The position numbers and the translations under genes were made by a program. This document shows, piece by piece, positions 1-12,810 of a DNA stretch of 64,000 nt; within the stretch, counting starts at the first letter, position 1; every line of letters starts with the position of its first letter. This DNA comes from Actinomycetospora endophytica (lineage in GTDB: Bacteria; Actinomycetota; Actinomycetes; Mycobacteriales; Pseudonocardiaceae): the NCBI RefSeq assembly GCF_021026375.1, contig NZ_JAJNDB010000004.1:434001-498000 (forward strand), in the 5' to 3' direction. The notes under the pieces were generated by a model that did not search any database, was not told the origin of the DNA, and saw only the letters and a list, made by a program, of their open reading frames with translations.

Positions 1-1176
1 GAGGGGATCGTGACCTCCACCGGCGGGTCGACCAGTCATGCGGCGGTCGTCGCGCGCGCCCTCGGGACGGCCTGCGTGGTCGGCGCGGGGGCGCTGGAGA
101 TCGACGCGGCGGCGCGGGTGGTGCGGGTGGGCGAGCGGGTGCTGTCCGAGGGCGACCCCGTCTCGCTCGACGGCGCCTCGGGCGAGCTGGTCGCCGGGAC
201 GCTGCCCACGACGACGCCGGCCGCCGCCAACGAGGCGATGGACGCCCTGTTGGCCGCTGCTGCCGACGCCGCGGGCTGCGAGGTGCTCGCGCGCGTCACC
301 GTCCCGCCGGACGTGGTCGCCGCCCGGGCCGCGGGCGCCACCGGCGTCGTCACCGCCGTCGACGACGTCCTCGCCGCGTCCGGCGACCTCAACCACCTCG
401 TCGAGACCCTGCTCGAGAAGGGCTGGGACGGAGTCGGGGCCGGGACCGCGCTCGACGAGGTCCGCCGGGCGATCGCCCGGCAGGTGTCCGGCCTGCTCGC
501 GGCGGCCGGTGATCACGACGTCGACGTGCGCGCCATCGACCTGCTCGCCGACGAGGCCCGCGAGCTGCTGCAACAGACCGCCGTGACGACCCGGCACCCC
601 GAGCTCGCGCTGCCGCTCGGCGTCCCCGCCCTGATCGCAGCCCAGCGCGAAGGGCTCGCACTCGCTGCGTCCGAGGCCGGGTACGGCGGCCGGATGCGGC
701 TCGCGGTCCGGCACGTGTCGGACCCGGCGGAGGTCCGGGCGCTGCAGTCGCTCGACGGCGACGGGCCGGGGATGGGCACCTACCTGACCAGCCCGCGGGC
801 GGTGCTGGGCGCCGAGGCGCTGGTCGAGCTCAGCGAGGTGGTGTGGCTCGAGGTCCGGGCGCTGCAGGCGGCGATGTTCGGCATCCCGGCCCGGCAGTTC
901 CTCACCGCTGCGCCCCTCGACGACTACGTCGCCCGCGGACTGCTCGGCATCGACCCCCGGCACGCGATCGACCCGACCGTGGAGCCGCTGCTCGCGGTGC
1001 TCAGCGAGGCCGGCCGGGCGCATCCGGAGGTCCCGGTGGGGGTGCGGCTGTCCGGCACGGTCTCGGATCGCGTTGCGTCGCGGTTGTACGAGCTCGGGTT
1101 CCGGCGGTTCGCGGTCGATCTTCCCGAGGTGCGGCCGTTGATCCTCGGTCTGGGGCGCGCGGCTCTGGCGGGATGA
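1..1176 (+). CDS. PPDK-like protein, C-terminal part (5' end outside window)
   Basis: The frame is open from base 1 and starts inside a phosphohistidine swivelling domain. The visible TGGSTSHAAVVA motif puts the phospho-accepting His at visible residue 13, as in pyruvate phosphate dikinase. The rest has the length and order of the PPDK C-terminal PEP/pyruvate barrel, but its catalytic motifs are eroded. The stretch aligned with FGTNDLTQ reads WLEVRALQ, and the usual CGEHGGDP segment reads VRLSGTVSD, so the catalytic Cys and metal/PEP ligands appear lost. It may be a non-catalytic or re-purposed relative. It converges on the phosphatase gene at 1463 with two hairpins between. Family assignment is good; activity is doubtful. 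Confidence 0.7.
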   Translation, partial: EGIVTSTGGSTSHAAVVARALGTACVVGAGALEIDAAARVVRVGERVLSEGDPVSLDGASGELVAGTLPTTTPAAANEAMDALLAAAADAAGCEVLARVTVPPDVVAARAAGATGVVTAVDDVLAASGDLNHLVETLLEKGWDGVGAGTALDEVRRAIARQVSGLLAAAGDHDVDVRAIDLLADEARELLQQTAVTTRHPELALPLGVPALIAAQREGLALAASEAGYGGRMRLAVRHVSDPAEVRALQSLDGDGPGMGTYLTSPRAVLGAEALVELSEVVWLEVRALQAAMFGIPARQFLTAAPLDDYVARGLLGIDPRHAIDPTVEPLLAVLSEAGRAHPEVPVGVRLSGTVSDRVASRLYELGFRRFAVDLPEVRPLILGLGRAALAG

Positions 1177-1462: not shown

Positions 1463-2191
1463 TCAGTGAGGCGCCAGCTCGGTGAGCAGCGCGGGGAAGC
1501 GGTCGAGCAGCCCGGCGTCGAGTCCGCGGGCGAGCGCCCAACCGCGCGCCCCGCCGTAGCGTTCGTCCAGGGCCTCGAGCACGCCGCGGACCGTGCCCTC
1601 GTGCGCCTGGTAGAGCTCGGGCGCCACCGCGGCCATGTGCGCGGCGTAGCGCGGCCAGGTCCCGAACCGCGCCATCACCGCGGCCATGTTCGGGCCGCTG
1701 GCCAGATAGTCGGCCACGATCGCCTCGCGGTCCACACCGGCCAGAGCCAGGAGCAGGGTGACGACGAGCCCGGTGCGGTCCTTGCCCGCGGCGCAATGCA
1801 CCACCGTGGGTCGGCCCGCGAACGCCGCGGCGGCCCGCACGACCGACCCGAGCACGGAGGTCGGCGCCTCGAGGTGCATCAGCGAGAACAGCAGCGCCTG
1901 GCGGTCGGCGGGCTCGTCGTTCGGCGCCGCTTCACGCAGCGGCGCGTTGAGGTAGGTGACGTCGCGCCCGACCAGCGGACCGCGACCCTGCTCGACCGCC
2001 TCCGCCCCGACCCGCAGGTCGATGACGATCTCGAGCCCGAGCCGGTCGACGAGCACCGCGACGTCGTCGTCGGTGAGCGCCTGGAGGGTGTCGCTGCGGA
2101 AGAGCACCCCGTGGCACATCCGGCGGCCCTGGCTGGCGGGCAGGCCACCGAGGTCGCGGAAGTTCAGCGCGCCGACGACGGTGTCAGGCAC
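1463..2191 (-). CDS. Tyrosine/lipid phosphatase, MptpB (Y_phosphatase3) family
   Basis: A 242-residue protein from a GTG start that overlaps the HAD stop codon (GTGCCTGA), implying translational coupling. The P-loop HCAAGKDRTG at residues 132-141 has the catalytic Cys, the Arg, and the Lys-Asp pair typical of the MptpB family, which acts on phosphotyrosine and phosphoinositides. The early NFRDLGG and later LFRSDTL segments are also family hallmarks. It is the third gene of a minus-strand operon (DUF7064-like, HAD, phosphatase) diverging from the BMC operon. No signal peptide is visible. Substrate unknown. A start farther upstream is open but would lie inside the HAD gene. Confidence 0.82.
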   Translation of the reverse strand: MPDTVVGALNFRDLGGLPASQGRRMCHGVLFRSDTLQALTDDDVAVLVDRLGLEIVIDLRVGAEAVEQGRGPLVGRDVTYLNAPLREAAPNDEPADRQALLFSLMHLEAPTSVLGSVVRAAAAFAGRPTVVHCAAGKDRTGLVVTLLLALAGVDREAIVADYLASGPNMAAVMARFGTWPRYAAHMAAVAPELYQAHEGTVRGVLEALDERYGGARGWALARGLDAGLLDRFPALLTELAPH

Positions 2192-3191
2192 GGCAGATCC
2201 GGCGCATCGCCTCGAGGAGCTCGTCGGACGCGGCGGAGCGGTGCCCGTTCGAGGACGGCGGCACGGTGACGTTCGAGGACGCTCCCGCCAGTCCGGCCAC
2301 TGCCTCGCGCCGCCGTCGTCGCCGTCGTTCGCCCGGACCCTCCGGAGCGAGTGGCGCCGTCCGCTCACCTGACGTCAGCGATGTGCCATCGCTGACACCG
2401 GGGCTGGAGCACCCGCACGAGCACGGGCCCGCTTCGACCTCGACCGCGGACGCCACCCCGGGGATCGCGCACGCCCCCGTCGGCTCACGCGCCGCCTCGT
2501 CGCCCAGCAGGTGCGAGAGGACCTCCTGCGGCCACAGCGCGACGAACTCGGCGCCCGCCTCGGTCAGTTCCGCGGCCGAGTGCATCCCCCAAGCCACGCC
2601 GACGACGCGCACCCCGACCTCCGTCGCGTCGCGGACGTCTCCCGCGGTGTCGGTGACGAGCACGGTGGTGCCCGCGTCGGGACGCGTCGCCTCGCCGGCC
2701 TCGTCGTAGTCGGCGGAGCACCGCCGGCCGTACCCGCTGCCGGGCTCGGCGAGGTAGGTCCGCAGCGCCGTCCGCTTGTCCGGCGCGACGTCGCCGCCGA
2801 AGACGTGCGCGAAGCAGTACGCCAGCCCGTTGTCGACGAGCACGCGGCGCAGCACCTCCATCGCGTTCGACGACATCACCGCGAGCGTGCACTCCGAGGC
2901 CAGCCGCCGGACCACGGCCTGCATCCCCGGGACCAGGGGCGGGGAGTACGACGAGCGCAGCGCCGCCAGGAAGTCGTCGGTCGCCGCCCGGGCCTGCGCC
3001 TCGTCCGAGCACAGCCCGCGGATCGAGGTGAAGACGTTGCCGCGGAACAGGTCGAAGTACTGCCCCGGGGTGTCGACCCCGAGCCCGTGCCGGCGGCTGA
3101 TCGGCTCGAAGACCTCCCACGACGCGACGCGGGTCTGCACCAGCGTGCCGTCGAGGTCGAACACGACCGCGCGAACCGGGGCGGGGCTCAT
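2184..3191 (-). CDS. HAD-superfamily phosphatase with long C-terminal tail
   Basis: A 335-residue protein. Motif I FDLDGT has nucleophile Asp12 and acid/base Asp14. Motif II is in VMSSNA, the motif III Lys in APDK, and motif IV in VTDTAGD, giving a phosphoglycolate-phosphatase-like haloacid dehalogenase fold ending near residue 245. About 90 further residues are atypical: a Cys-rich patch (CSCGCSSP), a run of seven Arg, a Ser/Asn/Pro-rich linker and a short terminal helix, SDELLEAMRRICRA. A flexible linker ending in an amphipathic helix resembles BMC cargo peptides (inference). It overlaps both neighbours and diverges from the BMC operon. Likely substrates are small phospho-metabolites, not identified. 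Confidence 0.8.
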   Translation of the reverse strand: MSPAPVRAVVFDLDGTLVQTRVASWEVFEPISRRHGLGVDTPGQYFDLFRGNVFTSIRGLCSDEAQARAATDDFLAALRSSYSPPLVPGMQAVVRRLASECTLAVMSSNAMEVLRRVLVDNGLAYCFAHVFGGDVAPDKRTALRTYLAEPGSGYGRRCSADYDEAGEATRPDAGTTVLVTDTAGDVRDATEVGVRVVGVAWGMHSAAELTEAGAEFVALWPQEVLSHLLGDEAAREPTGACAIPGVASAVEVEAGPCSCGCSSPGVSDGTSLTSGERTAPLAPEGPGERRRRRRREAVAGLAGASSNVTVPPSSNGHRSAASDELLEAMRRICRA

Positions 3192-4168
3192 GCGCGCGAG
3201 AAGACCTCACCGAGCTCGCCGAGCCCGATGAAGTCCATGCACTCGCCGAACCCGACCCGGCCGCCGTCGCCCTCCGTCCACCGCAGCAGCACGTTGTGCC
3301 CGACGACGCCGGGCTGCGACTGCCACGGGAACGTCGTCAGGGCCTCCCCGCTCACCGCGACGGTCCGTGACCCGGCGCTGACCTCGATCGAGATCCGCTG
3401 CGGGTAGAGCCCGGAGCGCTGCGTCACCCCCTGCCCGCCCGAGAGCCCCTGGACCGTGCCGTTCTCCACCAGGTACCCGTGCGTGAGCCGCAGCGGGGAC
3501 TCGCCGTCGGGACCGTTCGACGTGTCGAAGTCGAACAGGCCGTGCACGACGAGGTCCTCCCTGAAGTGCGCGTGCATCCACGACAGCCGCGAGGTCTGCC
3601 GCTCGGCGCGCACACCCCAGCTGTGGTCCATCGTCGCGACGCAGTCGATCGGGAGGGTGCGCCCGCGGACCGACACCTCACCCTCGTAGTGCCCGGACTG
3701 GTCGAAGTGCCCGGCGTAGGCGTGGCCCCAGGTCTTGGCCATGTCGCGGTCGGCGGCGAGGGGGTCCTGGTCGGGGTCGTTGATGTCGTAGGCGGGCATG
3801 ATCGCCGTGTAGCGGAAGTGGATCCCGACGCCGGCCGCCGGGTCGGAGTAGTCGACGTCCCAGACCTGGTTCGGCTTCGAGCACACGACCTTCAGCCCGT
3901 TGGGCAGCTCGTAGTCGACGAGGCTCGCAGGGGCGGGCATGTTCTGCGCGTCCCAGTACTCCGCCGCCCACGGCTCCCGCACCCGCCGGGAGTTGATCGA
4001 GACCGTCGAGCCGACCATCCCGATCGGCTTGCGGAAGAGCCCGTAGAGCCCGATGTTGACCGGCCGCTCGGTGTCCTGGCCGGCGTAGAGGCCGAAGTAG
4101 TTGGTCTCGGCCCAGAGCGGGTCGTCGGTGGTCGGCGGGTGGAACTGCGCGTCCTCGTCGCGGATCAC
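3188..4168 (-). CDS. DUF7064/DUF7065-like protein
   Basis: A 326-residue soluble protein rich in beta-strand and aromatic residues, resembling lipocalin-like DUF7064/DUF7065 proteins found near lipid or steroid catabolism genes. No catalytic motif was recognised. The start is taken as GTG at 4168 because a perfect GGAGGAG ribosome-binding site (4175-4181) lies 6 nt upstream. A TTG five codons earlier would place that site inside the gene. Its stop overlaps the HAD start by 4 nt, so it heads the three-gene minus-strand operon. Its promoter shares the 185-bp control region with the BMC operon, suggesting co-regulation. Function unknown. Confidence 0.6.
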   Translation of the reverse strand: MIRDEDAQFHPPTTDDPLWAETNYFGLYAGQDTERPVNIGLYGLFRKPIGMVGSTVSINSRRVREPWAAEYWDAQNMPAPASLVDYELPNGLKVVCSKPNQVWDVDYSDPAAGVGIHFRYTAIMPAYDINDPDQDPLAADRDMAKTWGHAYAGHFDQSGHYEGEVSVRGRTLPIDCVATMDHSWGVRAERQTSRLSWMHAHFREDLVVHGLFDFDTSNGPDGESPLRLTHGYLVENGTVQGLSGGQGVTQRSGLYPQRISIEVSAGSRTVAVSGEALTTFPWQSQPGVVGHNVLLRWTEGDGGRVGFGECMDFIGLGELGEVFSRA

Positions 4169-4247
4169 CGTGATCTCCTCCAACGGCGGGTGTGGCTCGG
4201 ATCACCATGAGGGTCCGGGACCCCGACGGACCGAGCCAGTGCACCTG

Positions 4248-4353: not shown

Positions 4354-4641
4354 ATGCAGCTCGGTCGGGTGCTGGGCCAGGTGGTGGCGACCGTCCGCTC
4401 GCCCGGCTTCGACAACGTCTCGCTGCTGCTCGTCCAGGACACCACCGACGACGACGACGGAGACGGGGCGACCTGCGTCGCGGTCGACCTCGTCGGGGCG
4501 GGCGACGGCGACGTCGTGCTGATGACGACCGGGAGCGCGGCGCGCGTGGCTGCCGGCGCCGCCACGCCGACCGACCGGGCCGTCGTCGCCATCGCCGACT
4601 CGGTCATCCGCCACGGAACCGTCACCTACCGCACGGCGTGA
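4354..4641 (+). CDS. BMC-P vertex shell protein (EutN/CcmL family)
   Basis: A 95-residue protein starting [13 protein letters not shown], the conserved beta-barrel opening of EutN/CcmL pentamers, which cap the twelve vertices of a microcompartment shell. The middle holds an acidic loop ([10 protein letters not shown]) where the family is variable, followed by the usual [13 protein letters not shown] core. AGGAGG at 4343-4348 fixes the ATG. It is the first gene of the BMC operon and lies 28 bp before the first BMC-H gene. Its presence implies a closed polyhedral shell rather than open sheets. Confidence 0.95.
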
Positions 4642-4669
4642 GGCCGGGCGCGACCACGGGAGGACTCTC

Positions 4670-5011
4670 ATGACAACCACGGCGACGGCGACGACCGGCG
4701 CGTCGACCAACGGCGCGGTCCCGATGCGGGGAGCGCTGGGCCTCATCGAGACGAGGGGCCTGGTCGGGGCCATCGAGGCGGCCGACGCGATGGTCAAGGC
4801 CGCGAACGTGCAGGTCCTCGGGCACCGCGAGATCGGCGGCGGCCTGGTGACCGTCATGGTCCGCGGCGACGTCGGCGCGGTGAAGGCCGCGACGGACGCC
4901 GGCGCGGTCGCGGCGGGCAAGGCCGGCGAGGTGGTCTCCGTCCACGTCATCCCGCGCCCGCACGACGAGACCGAGGGCATCCTCGCGATCCTCGCCCGCC
5001 CGAAGGCGTAA
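4670..5011 (+). CDS. BMC-H hexameric shell protein (PduA/EutM type)
   Basis: A 113-residue single BMC-domain protein; residues 17-108 match canonical PduA/EutM/CcmK, with [31 protein letters not shown] and HVIPRPH. The pore-loop equivalent is EIGGG, close to the usual KIGSG, so a small polar pore is expected. Sixteen extra N-terminal residues are Thr/Ala-rich. It forms the flat shell facets. It sits between the vertex gene and the aldehyde dehydrogenase gene, whose ATG is only 3 bp downstream. Confidence 0.97.
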
Positions 5012-5014
5012 CCG

Positions 5015-6427
5015 ATGACCACGACCCTGGACCGGGGGTCGCCGGGGACGTGGGACGACGATCTCGCGGGCCTCGCCGACGTCCGGCGCAAGGCCCGTGC
5101 GGCGCGGGAGGCCGTCCGCGCCCTCGAGGGGGCCGACCAGGAGACCCTGGACGGCTACGTGCGGGCGATGGCGCGCGCCGGGACGAAGGCCGCGGAGGAG
5201 CTCGCGCGCCTCGCCGTCGACGAGACCGGCTACGGCGTCTACGAGCACAAGATCTACAAGAACCGCTACAACACCGGGTTCGTCGCGCGCTGGATGCTCG
5301 AGCGCCGGGCGGTCGGGGTGCTCTGGACCGACGAGGCCGCCCGGGTCACCGCGATCGGCAGCCCGATGGGGGTGATCGCCGGGATCATCCCGGTCACCAA
5401 CCCGACCTCGACGGCGCTGTTCAAGAGCCTCGCCGCGGTGAAGTCCGGCAACGCGGTGGTCCACGCGCCGCACCCGCGGGCGGCCCGCTGCACGGCGCGG
5501 GCCGCGGAGGTCATGGCCGAGGCCGCGGCCGCGGCGGGCGCGCCGGAGGGCCTGATCTCCTGCCTGGACTCGCCGACCCTCGCGGCCACCGCCGAGCTGA
5601 TGAGCCGCGAGGAGATCGCGCTGGTCCTCGCCACCGGCGGACCCGGCATGGTCCGCGCGGCCTACTCCAGCGGCAAGCCGACCATCGCCGTCGGCGCCGG
5701 CAACGTCCCGGCCTACGTCGGCGCCAGCGTGGCGGACCCGGCCGAGGCCGCCGAAATGATCATCACGTCGAAGGCCTTCGACAACGGAACGGCCTGTGTC
5801 GCCGAGCAGTCGGTGGTCGTCGCCGACGCCGTCGCGGACGATTTCCTGCGCGCGTTCGCCGAGCGTGGCGCGCACTGGATGGACGCGGCCCAGCAGCAGG
5901 CCCTCACTACGGTGCTCTTCGACGAGCGCGGCGCGCTGCGGCCGGCGTCGGTCGGGCAGAGCGCCCGGCGGCTGGCCGAGCTGGCCGGGTTCACCGTCCC
6001 CGACGCCACCCGGGTCCTCGCCGCCGAGCTCGACACCGTCAGCCCCGGCGTCCCGCTGTCCCGGGAGATCCTCGGCCCGGTCCTGTCGGTCTACCGGGCC
6101 CGCGACCCGAAGGCCGGCCTCGCCCGCTGCCGGGAGATCCTGGCGCTCGGCGGCGAGGGCCACACGGTCGCCGTCCACGCGGCCGACCCCGACGAACTGG
6201 CGCCGTTCGCGGCGCTGCCGGCCGGACGCATCGTCGTGAACACGCCCGCGCTGTTCGGCGGGATGGGCTACTCGACCGAGGTCGACCCGTCCTTCCAGCT
6301 GGGCACCGGCACCTGGAGCGGCTCGATCTGCTCGGACAACGTCACGCCCCTGCACCTGATCAACATCAAACGAGTCGCCCACGAGGTCCGGCCATGGCGC
6401 AGCGTCTACGACAGCGTCGAGGTCTAG
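5015..6427 (+). CDS. CoA-acylating aldehyde dehydrogenase, BMC core enzyme
   Basis: A 470-residue EutE/PduP/AdhE-N-like enzyme that oxidises an aldehyde to acyl-CoA with NAD+. Catalytic Cys261 lies in FDNGTACVAEQ, and the family segments PVTNPTSTALFKSL (from residue 126) and GAGNVPAYV (residues 228-236) are intact. A predicted N-terminal helix (about residues 15-40, ADVRRKARAAREAVRAL) could direct encapsulation, as the N-terminus of PduP does; this is inference. It is the only canonical BMC core enzyme in the locus and defines a metabolosome rather than a carboxysome. Aldehyde chain length cannot be read from sequence. Confidence 0.93.
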   Translation: MTTTLDRGSPGTWDDDLAGLADVRRKARAAREAVRALEGADQETLDGYVRAMARAGTKAAEELARLAVDETGYGVYEHKIYKNRYNTGFVARWMLERRAVGVLWTDEAARVTAIGSPMGVIAGIIPVTNPTSTALFKSLAAVKSGNAVVHAPHPRAARCTARAAEVMAEAAAAAGAPEGLISCLDSPTLAATAELMSREEIALVLATGGPGMVRAAYSSGKPTIAVGAGNVPAYVGASVADPAEAAEMIITSKAFDNGTACVAEQSVVVADAVADDFLRAFAERGAHWMDAAQQQALTTVLFDERGALRPASVGQSARRLAELAGFTVPDATRVLAAELDTVSPGVPLSREILGPVLSVYRARDPKAGLARCREILALGGEGHTVAVHAADPDELAPFAALPAGRIVVNTPALFGGMGYSTEVDPSFQLGTGTWSGSICSDNVTPLHLINIKRVAHEVRPWRSVYDSVEV

Positions 6428-6432
6428 CGCCC

Positions 6433-7275
6433 GTGGCGGCCCCCGACGACGGGTGGGCCGCGGCCCACGCGCTGCTCGCCGAGGCCGCCTCCCGCCGCGA
6501 CGACCCGATCCTGACGCCGCCGTCCCGCCCCCGGGTGGGCGTCGATCTCGGAACCGCGAGCTGCGTGCTGGTCGTGCTGGATGACGACCGCCCGGTGTGG
6601 GTCGAGTCGGCGGGCTCCGGGGCCCTGCACGACGGCGTCGTCGTCGACTTCGCCCGCGCCGTCGCGACCGTGCGGTCACTGCGGTCCCGCGCCGAGGACG
6701 CGCTGGGGGTGCCGCTGACCCGGGCGGCCACGGCGTACCCGCCGTGCATCCCGGTCGCCGACGCCCGGGCCTGCACCTATGTCTGCGAGGCCGCCGGGTT
6801 CGACGAGGTCGCCCTCGTCGACGAGGTCAGCGCGGCGCAGCGGACGCTCGAGATCTCCGACGGCGTCGTCGTCGACGTCGGGGGCGGGTCCACCGGGATC
6901 GGGGTGTTCCGCGGCGGCGAGCTGGTGCGCCTCGACGACCGCCCCGGCGGCGGGCACCACCTCGACCTGGTGCTGGCCGGCGCGCTGGGGATCACCGTCG
7001 AAGAGGCGGAGCGGACCAAGCGCGAACGGCCCGCCGACGCGCTGCCCATCCTCGTGCCCGGCCTGCACCGCATCGCGGAGTCGGTCCGCGCCATGACCGC
7101 CGGCACCGACGACGAGCTCCCGCTGCACCTGGCGGGTGGCGCCCTGATGATCCCGCGCGCCGGCGACGTGCTGGCGTCCTACCTGCAGAGGACCGTCGTG
7201 ACCCATCCGCACGCCCTGCTCGTCACCCCGGTCGGGATCGCGAGGTCGTGCCCCGAAGAAGGGACGACACAGTGA
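6433..7275 (+). CDS. EutJ-like actin/Hsp70-fold ATPase
   Basis: A 280-residue ASKHA-fold protein related to EutJ, the putative chaperone or reactivase of ethanolamine microcompartment loci. Phosphate-binding motifs are DLGTAS (38-43) and DVGGGSTGIG (148-157), with a C-terminal adenosine-type motif around HLAGGALMIP. The GTG start lies 5 bp after the aldehyde dehydrogenase stop, and the 3' end overlaps the BMC-T start (GTGA). EutJ proteins usually accompany B12 or radical lyases, but no such enzyme is in this locus, so the client is unclear. Confidence 0.85.
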   Translation: MAAPDDGWAAAHALLAEAASRRDDPILTPPSRPRVGVDLGTASCVLVVLDDDRPVWVESAGSGALHDGVVVDFARAVATVRSLRSRAEDALGVPLTRAATAYPPCIPVADARACTYVCEAAGFDEVALVDEVSAAQRTLEISDGVVVDVGGGSTGIGVFRGGELVRLDDRPGGGHHLDLVLAGALGITVEEAERTKRERPADALPILVPGLHRIAESVRAMTAGTDDELPLHLAGGALMIPRAGDVLASYLQRTVVTHPHALLVTPVGIARSCPEEGTTQ

Positions 7276-7898
7276 GCACCCCCAGCCTCCGCACCTACGC
7301 CTTCATCGACCGGATGCAGCCGCAGTGCGCCGCCCACATCGCCGCGACCAGCCCGGGCGACGTCCCGCTGGCCGGGATGGCCGAGCTCTACATCGAGATG
7401 GCCCCCGGCAACGAGGTGTTCCGCGCGGCCGACATCGCGCTCAAGGCCGCCGGGGTCCGTCCCGCGCTGCAGATCATCGAGCGCGAGTACGGGCTCCTCG
7501 AGATCCACTCCGAGCAGCAGGCCGAGGTCCTCGCCTCCGGGCAGGCCGTGCTCGACGAGCTGGGCCTGCTCGAGACCGACCGGATCCGCCCGACGATCGC
7601 GTCGACGCAGTTCATCACCAACGTCCACCCGTACCAGGCGCAGCTGCTCAACAAGTGGCGCAAGGGCAGCATGCTGCTGCCGGGCCAGAGCCTGTTCGTC
7701 ATGGAGGTCGCGCCGGCCGCGTACATCTCGATCGCCGCGAACGAGGCCGAGAAGGCCGCGTCGATCACCGTCATCGAGCTGCGCGCCGTCGGCCGGTTCG
7801 GCCGGATGTTCCTGTCCGGCACCGAGAGCGAGGTCGCCTCCGCGCGGGACGCGGCCGTCGCCGCTCTCGAGGAGCTCAAGGGGCAGGAGGCGCGATGA
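7272..7898 (+). CDS. BMC-T tandem-domain trimeric shell protein
   Basis: A 208-residue protein with two tandem BMC domains (about residues 25-105 and 110-203), the BMC-T architecture that forms pseudohexameric trimers, often with gated pores for larger metabolites or cofactors. Domain 1 holds LAGMAELYIEMAPGNEVFRA, and domain 2 holds SLFVMEVAPAAYISIAANEA. The GTG start overlaps the EutJ-like stop by 4 nt and the stop overlaps the next ATG by 4 nt. With BMC-P and BMC-H it completes the minimum shell set. Similar tandem proteins occur in the Rhodococcus/Mycobacterium (RMM) loci. Confidence 0.88.
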   Translation: MSTPSLRTYAFIDRMQPQCAAHIAATSPGDVPLAGMAELYIEMAPGNEVFRAADIALKAAGVRPALQIIEREYGLLEIHSEQQAEVLASGQAVLDELGLLETDRIRPTIASTQFITNVHPYQAQLLNKWRKGSMLLPGQSLFVMEVAPAAYISIAANEAEKAASITVIELRAVGRFGRMFLSGTESEVASARDAAVAALEELKGQEAR

Positions 7899-9214
7899 GC
7901 GTCTGGGGCACGGAGGACGTCGAGGCGGCGGCGCAGCGGGGCGCGACGCTGCGCGTGGGCCCCGGCGACGTCGTCACCCCGCTCGCCCGGGAGCGCGCCG
8001 CCGAGCTCGGCGTGACGATCGGCGAGGCCGACGCGGCCGACCGGCCCCACCCGCCGTCGTCGGGGACCACCGACCGACCCACCCCGACCCGGACCTCCGC
8101 GACGACGGCGGGTGCGCGGCGGAACGGGCACGGGGCACCGCCCCCGTCGCCGACGAGCCCGGTGCCGCCGCTCCCCAGCGGCACCGGCGGGCCCGTCCGC
8201 AGCATGCACCCGCCGTCGGGGGCGCTCTTCCGGCGCGGCGCTCCGTTGCCCGCGGACCTGACCCGGCACGACGACGGCCCGACCGGCCGCGTGGTGGTCG
8301 TCGGCGCCGGGCAGGTCGGGATGATCGCGGCGATGCGGCTGGCCGACGCCGACGCGTTCGACGAGGTCGTGCTGGTCGACATCGACGAGGGCCGCGCCGC
8401 CGGGATCGCGCTCGACCTGACCCACACCGCCGCGCTGTCGGACTTCGCCACCCGGATCCGCGGGGTCGGCACCGTCGAGGAGGCGGGCGCCGCGGACTAC
8501 GTCGTGATCACCGCGGGCCGGCCGCGCACGCCCGGGATGAGCCGCGCCGACCTGGTCGGCACGAACGCCGCGATCGTCGGCGACGTGGCCCGGCGCGTGG
8601 CCGCGACCTCGCCGCAGGCGGTCCTCGTCGTCGTCACCAACCCGCTCGACGAGATGACCCAGCACGCGTGGGTCTCCGCGGGTTTCCCGTCGGACCGGGT
8701 GATCGGCATGGCCGGGGTGCTCGACACCGTGCGCTTCCGGGCACTGATCGCGCTGGAATCCACCGGCCGGGCCGGTGCCGTCGACGCGATCGCCCTCGGC
8801 AGCCACGGCGAGGAGATGGTCATCCCGCTCTCGCGTGTGCGCGTCGGGGGCCGGCCCGTCGCCGAGGTGGTGCCGCCGGCGCGGGTGAACGCCGTCGTCG
8901 ACCGGGCCCGCGGGTCGGGCGCGGAGGTCGTGGGGCTGCTGCGCAGCGGCAGCGCGTTCCTGGCGCCGGGCATGTCCGCGGCGCGGATGGTGCTGGCGAT
9001 GGCCCGCGAGACCGGCGAGGTGATGTCCGCGGCGGTGCTCGCCGACGGCAGCTACGGCATCCGGGACGTCTACCTGGGCCTGCCGGTCCGGCTCGCGAAG
9101 CACGGTCTGCGCGAGATCGTCCGCCTCGACCTGGCGCCCGAGGAGCTCGCCGCGCTGCGCGAGGCGGGGGAGCGGATCCGGGAGCGGCTCGGCTCGATGG
9201 CGCGGGCGTCCTGA
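7895..9214 (+). CDS. Malate dehydrogenase-like enzyme with N-terminal module and Pro-rich linker
   Basis: A 439-residue protein. Residues 131-439 are an NAD-dependent lactate/malate dehydrogenase, with GAGQVG (137-142), VTNPLD (247-252) and catalytic His304 in GSHGEEMV. The specificity loop AGRPRTPGMSR carries Arg at the position that distinguishes malate from lactate dehydrogenases. Residues 1-45 form an extra module with VGPGDVVTPLARERAAELGV, a segment type I associate with BMC-linked proteins, followed by about 75 Pro/Ser/Thr-rich residues. This looks like a cargo tag on a tether (inference). It may use a 2-oxoacid to regenerate NAD+ inside the shell. ATGA overlap with BMC-T. Confidence 0.85.
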   Translation: MSVWGTEDVEAAAQRGATLRVGPGDVVTPLARERAAELGVTIGEADAADRPHPPSSGTTDRPTPTRTSATTAGARRNGHGAPPPSPTSPVPPLPSGTGGPVRSMHPPSGALFRRGAPLPADLTRHDDGPTGRVVVVGAGQVGMIAAMRLADADAFDEVVLVDIDEGRAAGIALDLTHTAALSDFATRIRGVGTVEEAGAADYVVITAGRPRTPGMSRADLVGTNAAIVGDVARRVAATSPQAVLVVVTNPLDEMTQHAWVSAGFPSDRVIGMAGVLDTVRFRALIALESTGRAGAVDAIALGSHGEEMVIPLSRVRVGGRPVAEVVPPARVNAVVDRARGSGAEVVGLLRSGSAFLAPGMSAARMVLAMARETGEVMSAAVLADGSYGIRDVYLGLPVRLAKHGLREIVRLDLAPEELAALREAGERIRERLGSMARAS

Positions 9215-9215
9215 C

Positions 9216-10247
9216 GTGCGGGCCGTCGTGCACGCCGGGAACGGACGCGTCCGGGTGGAGGACGTCGCCGATCCCCGCCTCTGCGCGGCCACCGACGCGA
9301 TCGTGCGGGTGCGCCGCGCGGCGGTCTGCGGCACCGACCTGCACGTCCTCGCCCATTCCGACGCCGTGCCCCGCGGGTTCGTGCTCGGCCACGAGTTCGT
9401 CGGCGAGGTGGTCGAGCGCGGTGACCAGGTGCGGGCGCACCAGCTCGGCGACGTCGTGATCGGCGCCGACTACACCGCCTGCGGGCACTGCTGGTGGTGC
9501 CGGCAGGGCGATCACTGGCAGTGCGCCGAGCGTCGGTTCTTCGGCACCGGGTCGCTGTTCGGGGAACCGCTGGCCGGCGCGCAGGCGGAGCTGGTCCGCG
9601 TGCCGCACGCCGACACCGTGCTGGTCGGGCTGCCGGCGGGGATCGGGCTCGACAGCGCGGTGCTGCTCGGGGACACCGTCGCGACCGGCTACGCGGCGCT
9701 CCGGCGCGCGACGCTGGCCCCGGGGGAGACCGTCGCCGTGCTCGGCGGTGGACCGGTCGGGCAGGTCACCAGCCTCGTCGCGCAGGCGTGCGGCGCCGGA
9801 GTGGTCGTCGTGGTGGAGCCGGTCGCCGGCCGCCGGGAGGTGGCGGCCCGGGAGGGCGCGCTCACCGCTGCCCCCGAGGAGGCTCGATCCGTCGTCGACG
9901 GCGTGACCGACGGACGCGGTGCGGACGTCGTCGTCGACGCGGTCGGGGGCAGCCGGGGGCTCGCGCTGGCGCTGGATCTGGTGCGACGACGGGGCCGGGT
10001 CGCCTCGGTCGGGGTGCCGGAGGAGACGGTCGAGCTGCCCGCCGCGCGGGTGTTCACCGAGGAGCTGGGGTTCTCGTTCGCGGTCGGGGACGTCATGCGT
10101 GACGCGGGCGCGCTGCTGGCACTCGTCCGGGCCGGGACGCTCGATCCGAGCGCGATCGCGACCGACGAGATCGGGATCGAGGAGGCCGCGGAGGCGTATC
10201 GACGCATGACCGAACGCCTTACGCTCAAGACGCTGATCCGGCTCTAG
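9216..10247 (+). CDS. Zinc-dependent alcohol dehydrogenase (MDR family)
   Basis: A 343-residue medium-chain dehydrogenase. Catalytic zinc ligands are Cys38 in AVCGTD and the GHE of LGHEFVGEV (residues 58-60). The structural zinc loop is ACGHCWWCRQGDHWQC, and the Rossmann motif VLGGGPVGQ lies near residue 175. It could oxidise an alcohol to the aldehyde used by the acylating dehydrogenase, or reduce that aldehyde to regenerate NAD+, as PduQ does in propanediol microcompartments. No cargo-like extension is visible. The GTG start lies 1 bp after the previous stop, and it is followed within 25 bp by the regulator. Confidence 0.88.
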   Translation: MRAVVHAGNGRVRVEDVADPRLCAATDAIVRVRRAAVCGTDLHVLAHSDAVPRGFVLGHEFVGEVVERGDQVRAHQLGDVVIGADYTACGHCWWCRQGDHWQCAERRFFGTGSLFGEPLAGAQAELVRVPHADTVLVGLPAGIGLDSAVLLGDTVATGYAALRRATLAPGETVAVLGGGPVGQVTSLVAQACGAGVVVVVEPVAGRREVAAREGALTAAPEEARSVVDGVTDGRGADVVVDAVGGSRGLALALDLVRRRGRVASVGVPEETVELPAARVFTEELGFSFAVGDVMRDAGALLALVRAGTLDPSAIATDEIGIEEAAEAYRRMTERLTLKTLIRL

Positions 10248-10272
10248 GGGATCGGTAGGTGGAGGTGGGCCC

Positions 10273-12369
10273 ATGGAGCCGGTCGGCGTCGACGCGGCAC
10301 CGGCGCTGGTGCCTGCCCCGCGGGTGGGGTGTCCCGTGCAGGATCTGCTGACGACGGTCCCGGACGACCCGTCGGGTGCCGCCACCGCCGTCGAGCGGGC
10401 CGCCTCGGAGATCGTCGGCGGGCCGGTGTCGGTGCGGACCGACGGGCTGGCCGACGGGCCGCGGTGCGTGCGCTCCGGGCCGGTCGGGCTGACGTGGACG
10501 CTCGAGTGCCCGCGGGTCCCGGCGGAGCGGCGGCTGCTCCTCGAGCAGGCGTGCGTCTGGCTGCGGCTGGTGCTCGAGCGCGACCGCGCCGCCACCGCGA
10601 TCGACGACGCCGCCGAGGAGACGACGATCGTCACCGACGTCGTCGAGGCGCTGCTCTCGGTGCACGACGTCGACCAGCTGCTGCTGTCCATCGCCGACCG
10701 CACGCTCGGCCTGCTCGACGCCGACATCTGCGGGGTGCTGCTGCGCGAGGGCGAGGAGGTCCGGATGCGCTCCTGCGTCGGGCACCGCGTCATCGACACC
10801 GCGCGCCTGCGGATGCGCCGCGGGCAGGGCGTGGCCGGGCTGGTGTTCGAGACCGGGAAGCCCGCGAAGGTCGACCGCTACGTCGAGGACCGCACGATCA
10901 GCCGGGACTTCGTCGGGCTCGCCGAGCGCGAGCAGACCGAGTCGGCCCTCGCCGTGCCGCTCGAGCTGCCCGGCGAGTTCCTCGGGGTCCTCGAGGTCTG
11001 GCGCCGGCGCCCCTCGGTGTTCTCCGAGCAGGACGTGCGCCGCATGGTCACGCTCGCGAACTTCGCGACGATCGCGCTGCGCAGCGCCCGGCTGCACGAC
11101 GAACAGGTCCGCGCCAACGCGGGTCTGGAGAAGGCCCACGCCGCGCTCAAGCACCAGGTCGGCGTCCTCGGGCGGACCGCCGAGCTGCAGCAGGCCCTGC
11201 TCACGACGGTGCTGGAAGGGGGCGGGCTCCCCGCGGTGGCGCGCCAGGTGGCCGCGCACCTGCAGTGCCGGGTGGGCATCTACGACGCCGCCGGGACCCG
11301 GCTCGCCGTGCACGGCGGCGACGGCCTGCCGGACACCCTGTCCACGCGGTCGCGATCCGGGCGCTCGCTGCGCCGGGTGACCGGACTGCCGACGGCCGCC
11401 CGGCTGCAGCCGGTGTACGCCGACGGCGACGAGATCGGCTGCGTCTGCCTGCTGCCCGGCAGCGGCGGCGAGAGCTCGGGCGAGGAGATGCTCGACGCGG
11501 TGGCCGCGCAGGTCGCGATGGCGTGCTCGCTGACGCTGCTGCGCGAGCGCGTGGCGAGCCGGGCGCGTCGCGAGGCGCTGAACGAGGTGCTCTGGGACCT
11601 CCTCCAGGGGCCGCCCGAGCACCGGGTCGCGGCGCGGGCGCGGGCGCAGCAGATGGGGGTCACGCTCGGGTCCCGGCTCCGGGTGCTGCACGGGCACCTC
11701 GAGAACGTCGAGGAGCTGGCGTCGGCGCACGGGTGGGACACCTCGCGCACCGACCGCCTGCGCCGCGACGTCGTCCGGGCGTTGCGGGACCGGGAGGACG
11801 GGCCGCGTCTCGCCCTCGTCGGGCGCCGGGGCGACCTCGTCGTCGCCGTCGCCGAGTCGCTCGACGCGGCCGGCGCGCGGTCGCTCGTCCACGACATCGT
11901 GGCGTCGTGTCGCGCGGAGGCGCCGGGGCTGCGGTCGTCGTGGGGAGTCAGCCGCCCGCACGACGACGCCGAGGCCCTGCCGAACGCGTTCAACGAGGCC
12001 AAGACGGCGCTGTCCGCGTCGCACCGGCTCGGCGGCGACAACGTCTTCCTCTACGAGGAGCTCGGCGTCGTGCGGCTGTTGCTCGGGTCCGGCTCCGACC
12101 CGGACCTGCAGACCTTCATCGAGGACGTCACCGGCCCGCTGGTGGCCTACGACCGCGACAACGACGGCTCGCTCGTCCGGACCCTGCGCGCGTTCTTCGA
12201 CGCCGACTGCTCGCAGCGCGCGGCGGCCGAGAAGCTCTTCGTGCACCACAAGACGCTGCGCTACCGGCTCGAGCGCATCAAGCAGCTCACCGGGCTGGAC
12301 CTGTCCCGCCACGACGACCGGATGCGGGCGGACGTGGCGCTGCGGCTGCTGCAGCTCAACGGGGAGTAG
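10273..12369 (+). CDS. GAF-domain PucR/CdaR-type transcriptional regulator
   Basis: A 698-residue regulator. It has an N-terminal region of unknown fold (1-110), a GAF sensor (about 115-265) with HDVDQLLLSIADRTL and GQGVAGLVFETG, a second ligand-binding-like region (300-430) and a C-terminal PucR helix-turn-helix. The HTH holds AAAEKLFVHHKTLRYRLERI, the family signature. PucR proteins usually activate nearby catabolic genes on binding a pathway metabolite. It is the last gene of the BMC operon and the natural candidate to bind the shared inverted repeats at 4248 and 12811. A GGTGGAGG ribosome-binding site precedes the ATG. Confidence 0.87.
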   Translation: MEPVGVDAAPALVPAPRVGCPVQDLLTTVPDDPSGAATAVERAASEIVGGPVSVRTDGLADGPRCVRSGPVGLTWTLECPRVPAERRLLLEQACVWLRLVLERDRAATAIDDAAEETTIVTDVVEALLSVHDVDQLLLSIADRTLGLLDADICGVLLREGEEVRMRSCVGHRVIDTARLRMRRGQGVAGLVFETGKPAKVDRYVEDRTISRDFVGLAEREQTESALAVPLELPGEFLGVLEVWRRRPSVFSEQDVRRMVTLANFATIALRSARLHDEQVRANAGLEKAHAALKHQVGVLGRTAELQQALLTTVLEGGGLPAVARQVAAHLQCRVGIYDAAGTRLAVHGGDGLPDTLSTRSRSGRSLRRVTGLPTAARLQPVYADGDEIGCVCLLPGSGGESSGEEMLDAVAAQVAMACSLTLLRERVASRARREALNEVLWDLLQGPPEHRVAARARAQQMGVTLGSRLRVLHGHLENVEELASAHGWDTSRTDRLRRDVVRALRDREDGPRLALVGRRGDLVVAVAESLDAAGARSLVHDIVASCRAEAPGLRSSWGVSRPHDDAEALPNAFNEAKTALSASHRLGGDNVFLYEELGVVRLLLGSGSDPDLQTFIEDVTGPLVAYDRDNDGSLVRTLRAFFDADCSQRAAAEKLFVHHKTLRYRLERIKQLTGLDLSRHDDRMRADVALRLLQLNGE

Positions 12370-12384
12370 GTGCGCTGCGCGCTG

Positions 12385-12424
12385 GTGAGCAGTAATTGAC
12401 GCCTGGGCATCAATTGCTGCTCAC
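12385..12424. terminator. Bidirectional terminator hairpin
   Basis: Arms 12385-12399 and 12410-12424 pair over 15 bp, with one G-T wobble, around a 10-nt loop. The hairpin separates the convergent PucR-type regulator and second BMC-H genes and so probably terminates both. It is AT-richer than its surroundings. Confidence 0.75.
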
Positions 12425-12439
12425 AAGGCCGAAGGCCAC

Positions 12440-12739
12440 CTACCGGATGTGCGAGACCGCGGCGTCGACGATGCCCTCGGTGTCGGCGTGCGGCCGCGGG
12501 ATGACGTGCGAGGCGTAGAGCTCCCCGACGGCGGCCGCGGCCACCTTGCCGGCGTCGACGGCGGCCGTCACCGCGCCCACATCGCCGCGGACGAGCACCG
12601 ACACCTGGCCGTTGCGCAGCGTCCGGTAGCCCTCGACCTCGACCGCCGCGGACTTGACCATCGCGTCGGCCGCCTCGATCGCGCCGACCAGCCCCCGGGT
12701 CTCGACCATCCCGAGCGCGCTCCGTCCCGGCTGGGTCAT
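12440..12739 (-). CDS. Second BMC-H shell protein, altered pore
   Basis: A 99-residue single BMC-domain protein, with [32 protein letters not shown] and ASHVIPRPH. The ATG at 12739 follows an AGGGAGG ribosome-binding site. The pore segment reads RTLRNGQV in place of the usual KIGSGLV-like sequence, adding Arg and Asn at the sixfold axis, so its transport selectivity probably differs from the first BMC-H. It is transcribed separately from the main operon, convergent with the regulator gene, so shell composition might be tuned independently. The candidate operator at 12811-12840 lies 72 bp upstream. Confidence 0.95.
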
Positions 12740-12810
12740 CGGGGCCTCCCTGCGGCGTGTCGTCCTCGCCGAGCGTGTCAGGAGACCCCGCGCGGTGACC
12801 ACGACCCGCA

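Follow-up and report, generated by a model that had tools for sequence, protein, structure and literature searches.

A conserved kinase and candidate phospho-lyase module as the probable signature of an orphan metabolosome locus in Actinomycetospora endophytica

The stretch of DNA analysed here, called the window, comprises 64,000 nucleotides of the 7-Mb actinobacterial genome of Actinomycetospora endophytica (contig NZ_JAJNDB010000004.1, positions 434,001 to 498,000; G000:C12:434001-498000 in our numbering, where G000 is the window genome). Near its left end lies a bacterial microcompartment (BMC) locus with shell genes, a CoA-acylating aldehyde dehydrogenase (AldDH), a malate dehydrogenase-like (MDH-like) enzyme and a zinc alcohol dehydrogenase (ADH), which fits, by the text description of its gene content, the published orphan type MIC1. 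This known orphan type gains a newly visible and conserved candidate signature module, as the missing starter enzyme is probably a set of ATP-driven kinase and phosphate-lyase proteins encoded at and past the left edge of the window. We consider it fairly probable that the locus encodes a MIC1-like metabolosome and that its signature is a module for the ATP-dependent dehydration or rearrangement of a tertiary alcohol, so that the compartment would serve to degrade branched (tertiary) alcohols. A previous reading of the sequence alone (the sequence-only reading) had taken the gene set to be complete without any signature module, which proved to be largely an effect of the window edge. That reading had itself said that a canonical signature enzyme immediately past the left edge would count against it; this is largely what was found, although the conserved module there is not a classical signature enzyme.

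The kinase module and its linkage to the shell locus

The genes between the shell genes and the left end of the module are as follows.

Left of the window, upstream of the PPDK-like gene and reaching 3908 bp beyond the edge: Y225, X477 and swivel138
1..1176, + strand: 3' part of the PPDK-like phosphotransferase gene (PPDK830, 830 aa), which starts ~1.3 kb left of the window
1466..2368, - strand: tyrosine-phosphatase-family phosphatase (Y_phosphatase3)
2187..3191, - strand: HAD-family phosphatase
3191..4183, - strand: DUF7064/DUF7065 protein, proposed phospho-lyase, divergent from the BMC-P gene

The conserved four-gene module that reaches 3.9 kb past the edge encodes swivel138, which is a lone mobile domain of the phosphoenolpyruvate (PEP) utiliser kind (phosphohistidine swivel), the 477-aa protein X477, the 225-aa protein Y225, and PPDK830. 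Residues 6-556 of PPDK830, with the ATP-grasp and phosphohistidine domains, match solved PPDKs, whereas the C-terminal PEP/pyruvate barrel is diverged; compared with the true PPDK of the same genome, identity drops from 159/372 and 62/127 to 69/308 in the barrel. In alignments restricted to sequences that cover at least 85% of the query and contain no stops, the histidine loop is kept in 24/24 PPDK830 and 19/19 swivel138 sequences, and the CGE cysteine motif is absent from all 24 of the former. The cysteine of this motif has a role at the pyruvate site of PPDK, and because it is lost throughout, PPDK830 should not act on pyruvate. The module contains both an ATP-grasp domain and a swivel with a conserved histidine, as expected of a dikinase. 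X477 has no NCBIfam match, no Pfam match above cut-off and no significant PDB match, and no fold or sequence match was found by which it might be related to the substrate-binding domain of HpeH/RPH. Swivel, X477 and Y225 are fused into a single polypeptide in three other loci and in one R. opacus plasmid protein.

The linkage of this module to the shell genes was followed over 27 loci, namely 25 from named genomes, G085 (L036) and the window genome; L061, L063 and L064 (24-43% identity) were excluded from the counts, out of 28 loci, and R. oxybenzonivorans pRB98 (L065) was an extra locus outside the 27. Presence was counted by tblastn; the gene callers used elsewhere gave some antisense errors. 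The module is whole in 19 of the 27 loci, partial in six where the contig or flank ends inside it, and not visible on two short contigs, so that it is visible whole or end-cut in 25/27, and X477 itself in 24/27. X477 was found in 23/23 genomes searched, with 73-97% identity in all 21 whole genomes searched behind the loci, and a class sample of 394 genomes held X477 (at least 69%) only in G000 and G085, the same two that held the AldDH (at least 63%). The linkage spans Actinobacteria and Bradyrhizobium, and because the module occurs in three arrangements (upstream in the same direction, upstream reversed, downstream reversed), it is not the mere inheritance of one gene order. The DUF7064 and HAD phosphatase genes, which lie in the window but to the left of the part that the sequence-only reading had described, are likewise conserved members, with matches in 27/27 loci (for DUF7064 in two pieces in Bradyrhizobium). 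The Y_phosphatase3 gene occurs at 13/27 loci, once as a fragment, and a SurE-type gene takes its place in pRB98, R. jostii and Millisia.

Several loci showed irregular copies. The X477 gene of Actinomycetospora cinnamomea is broken into two pieces separated by ~1.3 kb, and a TGA interrupts one of them (L039 465-3183); this locus may be inactive. Pseudonocardia endophytica has two locus copies on one contig (L041, L043), and G085 has three close X477 copies, of which that on C36 has no shell gene in the 12 kb examined and that on C101 is near a BMC-H gene (L083, L084).

The module also exists without nearby shell genes in Proteobacteria and, in a diverged form, in Methylibium PM1. In Paraburkholderia PGU19 and in G680, a genome from the class of the Bradyrhizobium genome, it is paired with conventional ADH, AldDH and AMP-ligase genes, with no shell genes in the stretches examined; because of this pairing, the clusters suggest that a shell with an acylating AldDH can replace the conventional ADH, AldDH and AMP-ligase steps. 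X477 paralogues (60-62%) in G511 and G620 (L139, L141) have no swivel or PPDK within the 20 kb examined. Both are beside acyl-CoA dehydrogenase-like open reading frames (ORFs; by eye), and one is beside carboxylase genes of the methylcrotonyl-CoA (MCC) or geranyl-CoA carboxylase (GCC) type (575 bits to MCC-beta, 574 to an entry labelled as the beta subunit of propionyl-CoA carboxylase, PCC-beta, and 411 to GCC).

Proposed chemistry and its alternatives

The predicted model of the DUF7064 protein matches the fold of 25-phosphosteroid lyase (25-PSL), with no match at the sequence level, and we propose on the basis of this model that it is a phospho-lyase. 25-PSL is described in the available text of PMC7411048 and PMC8449060 as eliminating phosphate from a phosphorylated tertiary alcohol. 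Our pathway is built on gene content, linkage, the conserved catalytic histidines, the lost pyruvate-site cysteine and this fold match, from which we infer each reaction, the substrate and the proteins that sit inside the shell. The PPDK-like protein would take phosphate from ATP and hand it via swivel138 to an alcohol bound by X477, and the DUF7064 protein would expel the phosphate by a carbocation-like step. Any phosphoester left over would be cleaved by the HAD or the tyrosine-type phosphatase, so that the products are a primary (allylic) alcohol or its aldehyde, and the zinc ADH would convert the alcohol to the aldehyde; the aldehyde-forming role that the sequence-only reading gave to this ADH may thus hold as a second step, on the primary alcohol delivered by the kinase/lyase module. 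Inside the shell the acylating AldDH would make an acyl-CoA, perhaps 3-methylcrotonyl-CoA, and the MDH-like enzyme would re-oxidise NADH with oxaloacetate in a malate shuttle.

The branched C5 product is suggested because carboxylase and CoA-transferase genes adjoin the loci of several relatives, and 3-methylcrotonyl-CoA would in turn suggest 2-methyl-3-buten-2-ol or a similar compound as the substrate. Four shell loci have carboxylase or CoA-transferase genes of the leucine type next to them. In pRB98 a carboxylase is beside the second BMC-H gene and scores 1010 bits against AccD1 and 793 against methylcrotonyl-CoA carboxylase, but only 495 against geranyl-CoA carboxylase and at most 291 against most propionyl-CoA carboxylases, except for one 2026 entry with that label (787). 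AccD1 abuts BMC-H in Nocardia jiangxiensis and is followed by AccA1 and a CoA-transferase A subunit; a Microbacteriaceae metagenome-assembled genome carries, beside the HAD gene, AccA1, a MaoC hydratase, a CitE-like fragment, both 3-oxoacid CoA-transferase subunits and a thiolase; and in Pseudonocardia endophytica the genes for both CoA-transferase subunits lie next to a BMC-H gene. If the loci are taken as independent and carboxylase genes as occurring once per 6.5 Mb, we estimate the chance of such linkage at 3/26 loci as 0.002. As a universal feature the linkage was rejected, since 20/21 genomes with an MCC-beta orthologue (at least 71%), the window genome among them, have it on another contig or more than 50 kb away, and only G406 has it near the locus, as its second copy; G404 has only a 53% relative, and G405 has none at the limit used.

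The phosphate acceptor might instead be a phenol or another aromatic hydroxyl, as for CreHI, HpeHI and PpsAB, with the shell handling a later aldehyde of an aromatic pathway. The characterised two-part small-molecule dikinases with such domains act on phenols, as described in the available part of PMC12167813, and ARO, another actinobacterial shell type, is predicted to be aromatic in that of PMC8217296. Distant X477 relatives adjoin P450, ferredoxin and AldDH genes (L067) or are near a 4-hydroxyphenylacetate hydroxylase-type gene (L069). However, no ring-modifying family recurred among the inspected clusters of flanking genes (28 loci, up to ~30 kb per side, flank genes partly annotated), the linked carboxylase and CoA-transferase genes are leucine-type, and the fold of DUF7064 is that of a tertiary-phosphoester lyase, whereas phenyl phosphate cannot eliminate phosphate in this manner; we therefore regard a phenolic substrate as unlikely. 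The L069 genes are on a Rhodococcus pyridinivorans plasmid (7704-21230), together with a PPDK-like gene, a biotin carboxylase gene and three X477/swivel-like pairs, and this cluster may encode an Hpe-like pathway for phenolic ketones.

Slightly less likely still is that a classical signature enzyme, a B12 diol dehydratase or ethanolamine lyase, supplies the aldehyde from elsewhere in the genome. The window genome does encode the large subunit of a diol/glycerol dehydratase (C10:60491, 977 bits) with an adjoining reactivase-like ORF (by eye; L145, G000:C10:50000-69999), as well as EutB (C17:216219, 663 bits). Nevertheless, no BMC-domain gene lies on the contig of the diol dehydratase, and this enzyme is present in only 7/23 locus-bearing genomes, against 23/23 for X477, by which it was rejected as a general answer. 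The genome has three genes with the BMC domain (PF00936), all at this locus (BMC-P was not included in the genome-wide search), and no match to a glycyl radical enzyme (PF02901).

The least probable alternative is that the zinc ADH needs no partner to form the aldehyde, from a primary alcohol, with the MDH-like enzyme recycling NAD+ and the kinase module an unrelated neighbour: the ADH, AldDH and MDH genes are indeed adjacent and conserved, but so wide a linkage of the module in three arrangements argues against it, as does X477 being better conserved in Bradyrhizobium (74%) than AldDH (67%).

The ATP-dependent module for a tertiary alcohol would give this orphan type a predicted chemistry, namely phosphorylation of a tertiary alcohol followed by elimination of phosphate. 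A more specific version, which we offer tentatively, is that the locus represents a functionally new class of metabolosome, an organelle that handles hemiterpenoid tertiary alcohols (e.g., 2-methyl-3-buten-2-ol) without B12 or radical chemistry. The split dikinase and a lyase resembling 25-PSL would together serve as an ATP-driven dehydratase/isomerase and supply the shell with prenol or prenal, and a malate shuttle run by a malate dehydrogenase in the lumen would replace cofactor recycling in the style of PduQ/PduL. In either version, the module would extend compartment chemistry past radical enzymes and aldolases to ATP-driven activation, and would provide a candidate tertiary-alcohol-converting enzyme for degraders of fuel oxygenates such as Methylibium and a candidate enzyme for the soil turnover of hemiterpene alcohols emitted by plants.

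Genes of the shell locus and cofactor recycling

Gene identities at the locus were checked with Pfam and NCBIfam profiles, which confirm the following list.

4354..4638, + strand: BMC-P shell vertex protein (EutN_CcmL)
4670..5008, + strand: BMC-H shell protein 1
5015..6424, + strand: CoA-acylating aldehyde dehydrogenase, EutE/AdhE type (TIGR02518, 475 bits, below the model cut-off of 620)
6433..7272, + strand: EutJ-like actin-fold protein, between AldDH and BMC-T (275 bits, cut-off 182)
7272..7895, + strand: BMC-T shell protein (top match CcmP, 254 bits, below the cut-off of 340)
7895..9211, + strand: malate/lactate dehydrogenase (MDH-like) with a ~130-aa N-terminal targeting-like region and linker (profiles and alignment)
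9216..10244, + strand: zinc-dependent medium-chain alcohol dehydrogenase
10273..12366, + strand: GAF and PucR-type transcriptional regulator
12443..12778, - strand: BMC-H shell protein 2

The shell genes, the acylating AldDH, the MDH-like enzyme and the zinc ADH of the sequence-only reading are thus real, and its picture of a metabolosome whose locus lacks a classical signature enzyme is borne out, as none was found among the scanned locus genes; the EutJ gene is an addition to its list. The BMC-T protein is probably a BMC-Tdp, in line with its likeness to CcmP. The closest named relatives of the AldDH are from Actinomycetospora (88-91% identity), and no C-terminal extension of the AldDH was seen in the aligned loci.

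The MDH-like protein has a conserved N-terminal region of ~40 aa and a proline-rich linker in 26/26 aligned loci, for which start codons were chosen by script, and in pRB98 this region is a separate ORF adjoining MDH. It is probably targeted to the lumen. The MDH-type catalytic residues, which we take to be Arg102/Arg109/Asp168/Arg171/His195 in the usual numbering, are kept in all 25 sequences whose contig reaches them, and because the MDH-type arginine is among them, oxaloacetate/malate is the likely couple. The role of NAD+ recycler, which had been proposed for this enzyme earlier, is credible. The stand-alone ORF of pRB98 (L065 29168-29551, the counterpart of 7895-8020) shows a weak likeness (PF02817, E 0.0068, below cut-off) to the domain of 2-oxoacid dehydrogenase E2 that binds E3.

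Three further neighbours were rejected as locus members: a DHPS-like and a luciferase-like gene each had a match at just a single further locus (L040), and an AcoR-like regulator gave just partial matches of 29-37% in two loci. Outside the window, ~5.6-7.1 kb to its left (L034 8908-10425), a probable serine recombinase (by eye) is encoded where third-position GC is lower, which suggests that a mobile element has integrated directly upstream of the kinase module and the luciferase-like gene.

Comparison with known systems

The clustering of BMC-P and BMC-H/BMC-T shell genes with an acylating AldDH marks the locus as a metabolosome, and it does not belong to the PDU, EUT or GRM types, as the scanned locus genes include no classical signature enzyme. 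PVM metabolosomes carry PduL, which was not found at the window locus. They also possess an Ldh/Mdh-type dehydrogenase, there predicted to be the core alcohol dehydrogenase (available text of PMC4207490), and have an aldolase signature (that of PMC8217296), whereas no aldolase was found here. The best fit is MIC1, for which the available text of Axen et al. 2014 (PMC4207490) gives an AldDH, an Ldh/Mdh-domain dehydrogenase, a zinc-binding dehydrogenase, a hydrolase, a phosphatase and an MreB-like protein, without a phosphotransacylase (PTAC) or a recognised signature enzyme. The window locus agrees with this text description in gene set and in the absence of PTAC (PduL, PF06130; no match in the whole genome at E<=1), so that the distinct and unlisted BMC logic proposed earlier fails at the level of locus type. 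The same text does not mention the kinase module or DUF7064 and names no member genomes, and its wording may imply one dehydrogenase more than the two found here (MDH-like and zinc ADH). Many metabolosome types are listed without an aldehyde source in the available text of the 2021 catalogue (PMC8217296).

Among kinases, HpeHI, CreHI and PpsAB (available part of PMC12167813) also have an ATP-grasp part that is separate from the substrate-binding region and the phosphohistidine swivel, but there swivel and substrate region form one protein, whereas in our module they are split, and the ATP-grasp protein of the window locus differs from theirs in carrying a phosphohistidine domain of its own and in its diverged barrel. 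The 25-hydroxysteroid kinase/25-PSL pair of Sterolibacterium denitrificans (PDB 9g4c, 9fzn, 9g2i) has no microcompartment described in the available text of PMC7411048 and PMC8449060, and its kinase is a 40-kDa enzyme of the phosphotransferase family, whereas the candidate of the window locus is multi-component and of the PPDK/PEP-synthase type. In this pair, however, a tertiary alcohol is phosphorylated with ATP and the phosphate is then eliminated, and its 25-PSL shares the fold predicted for the DUF7064 protein.
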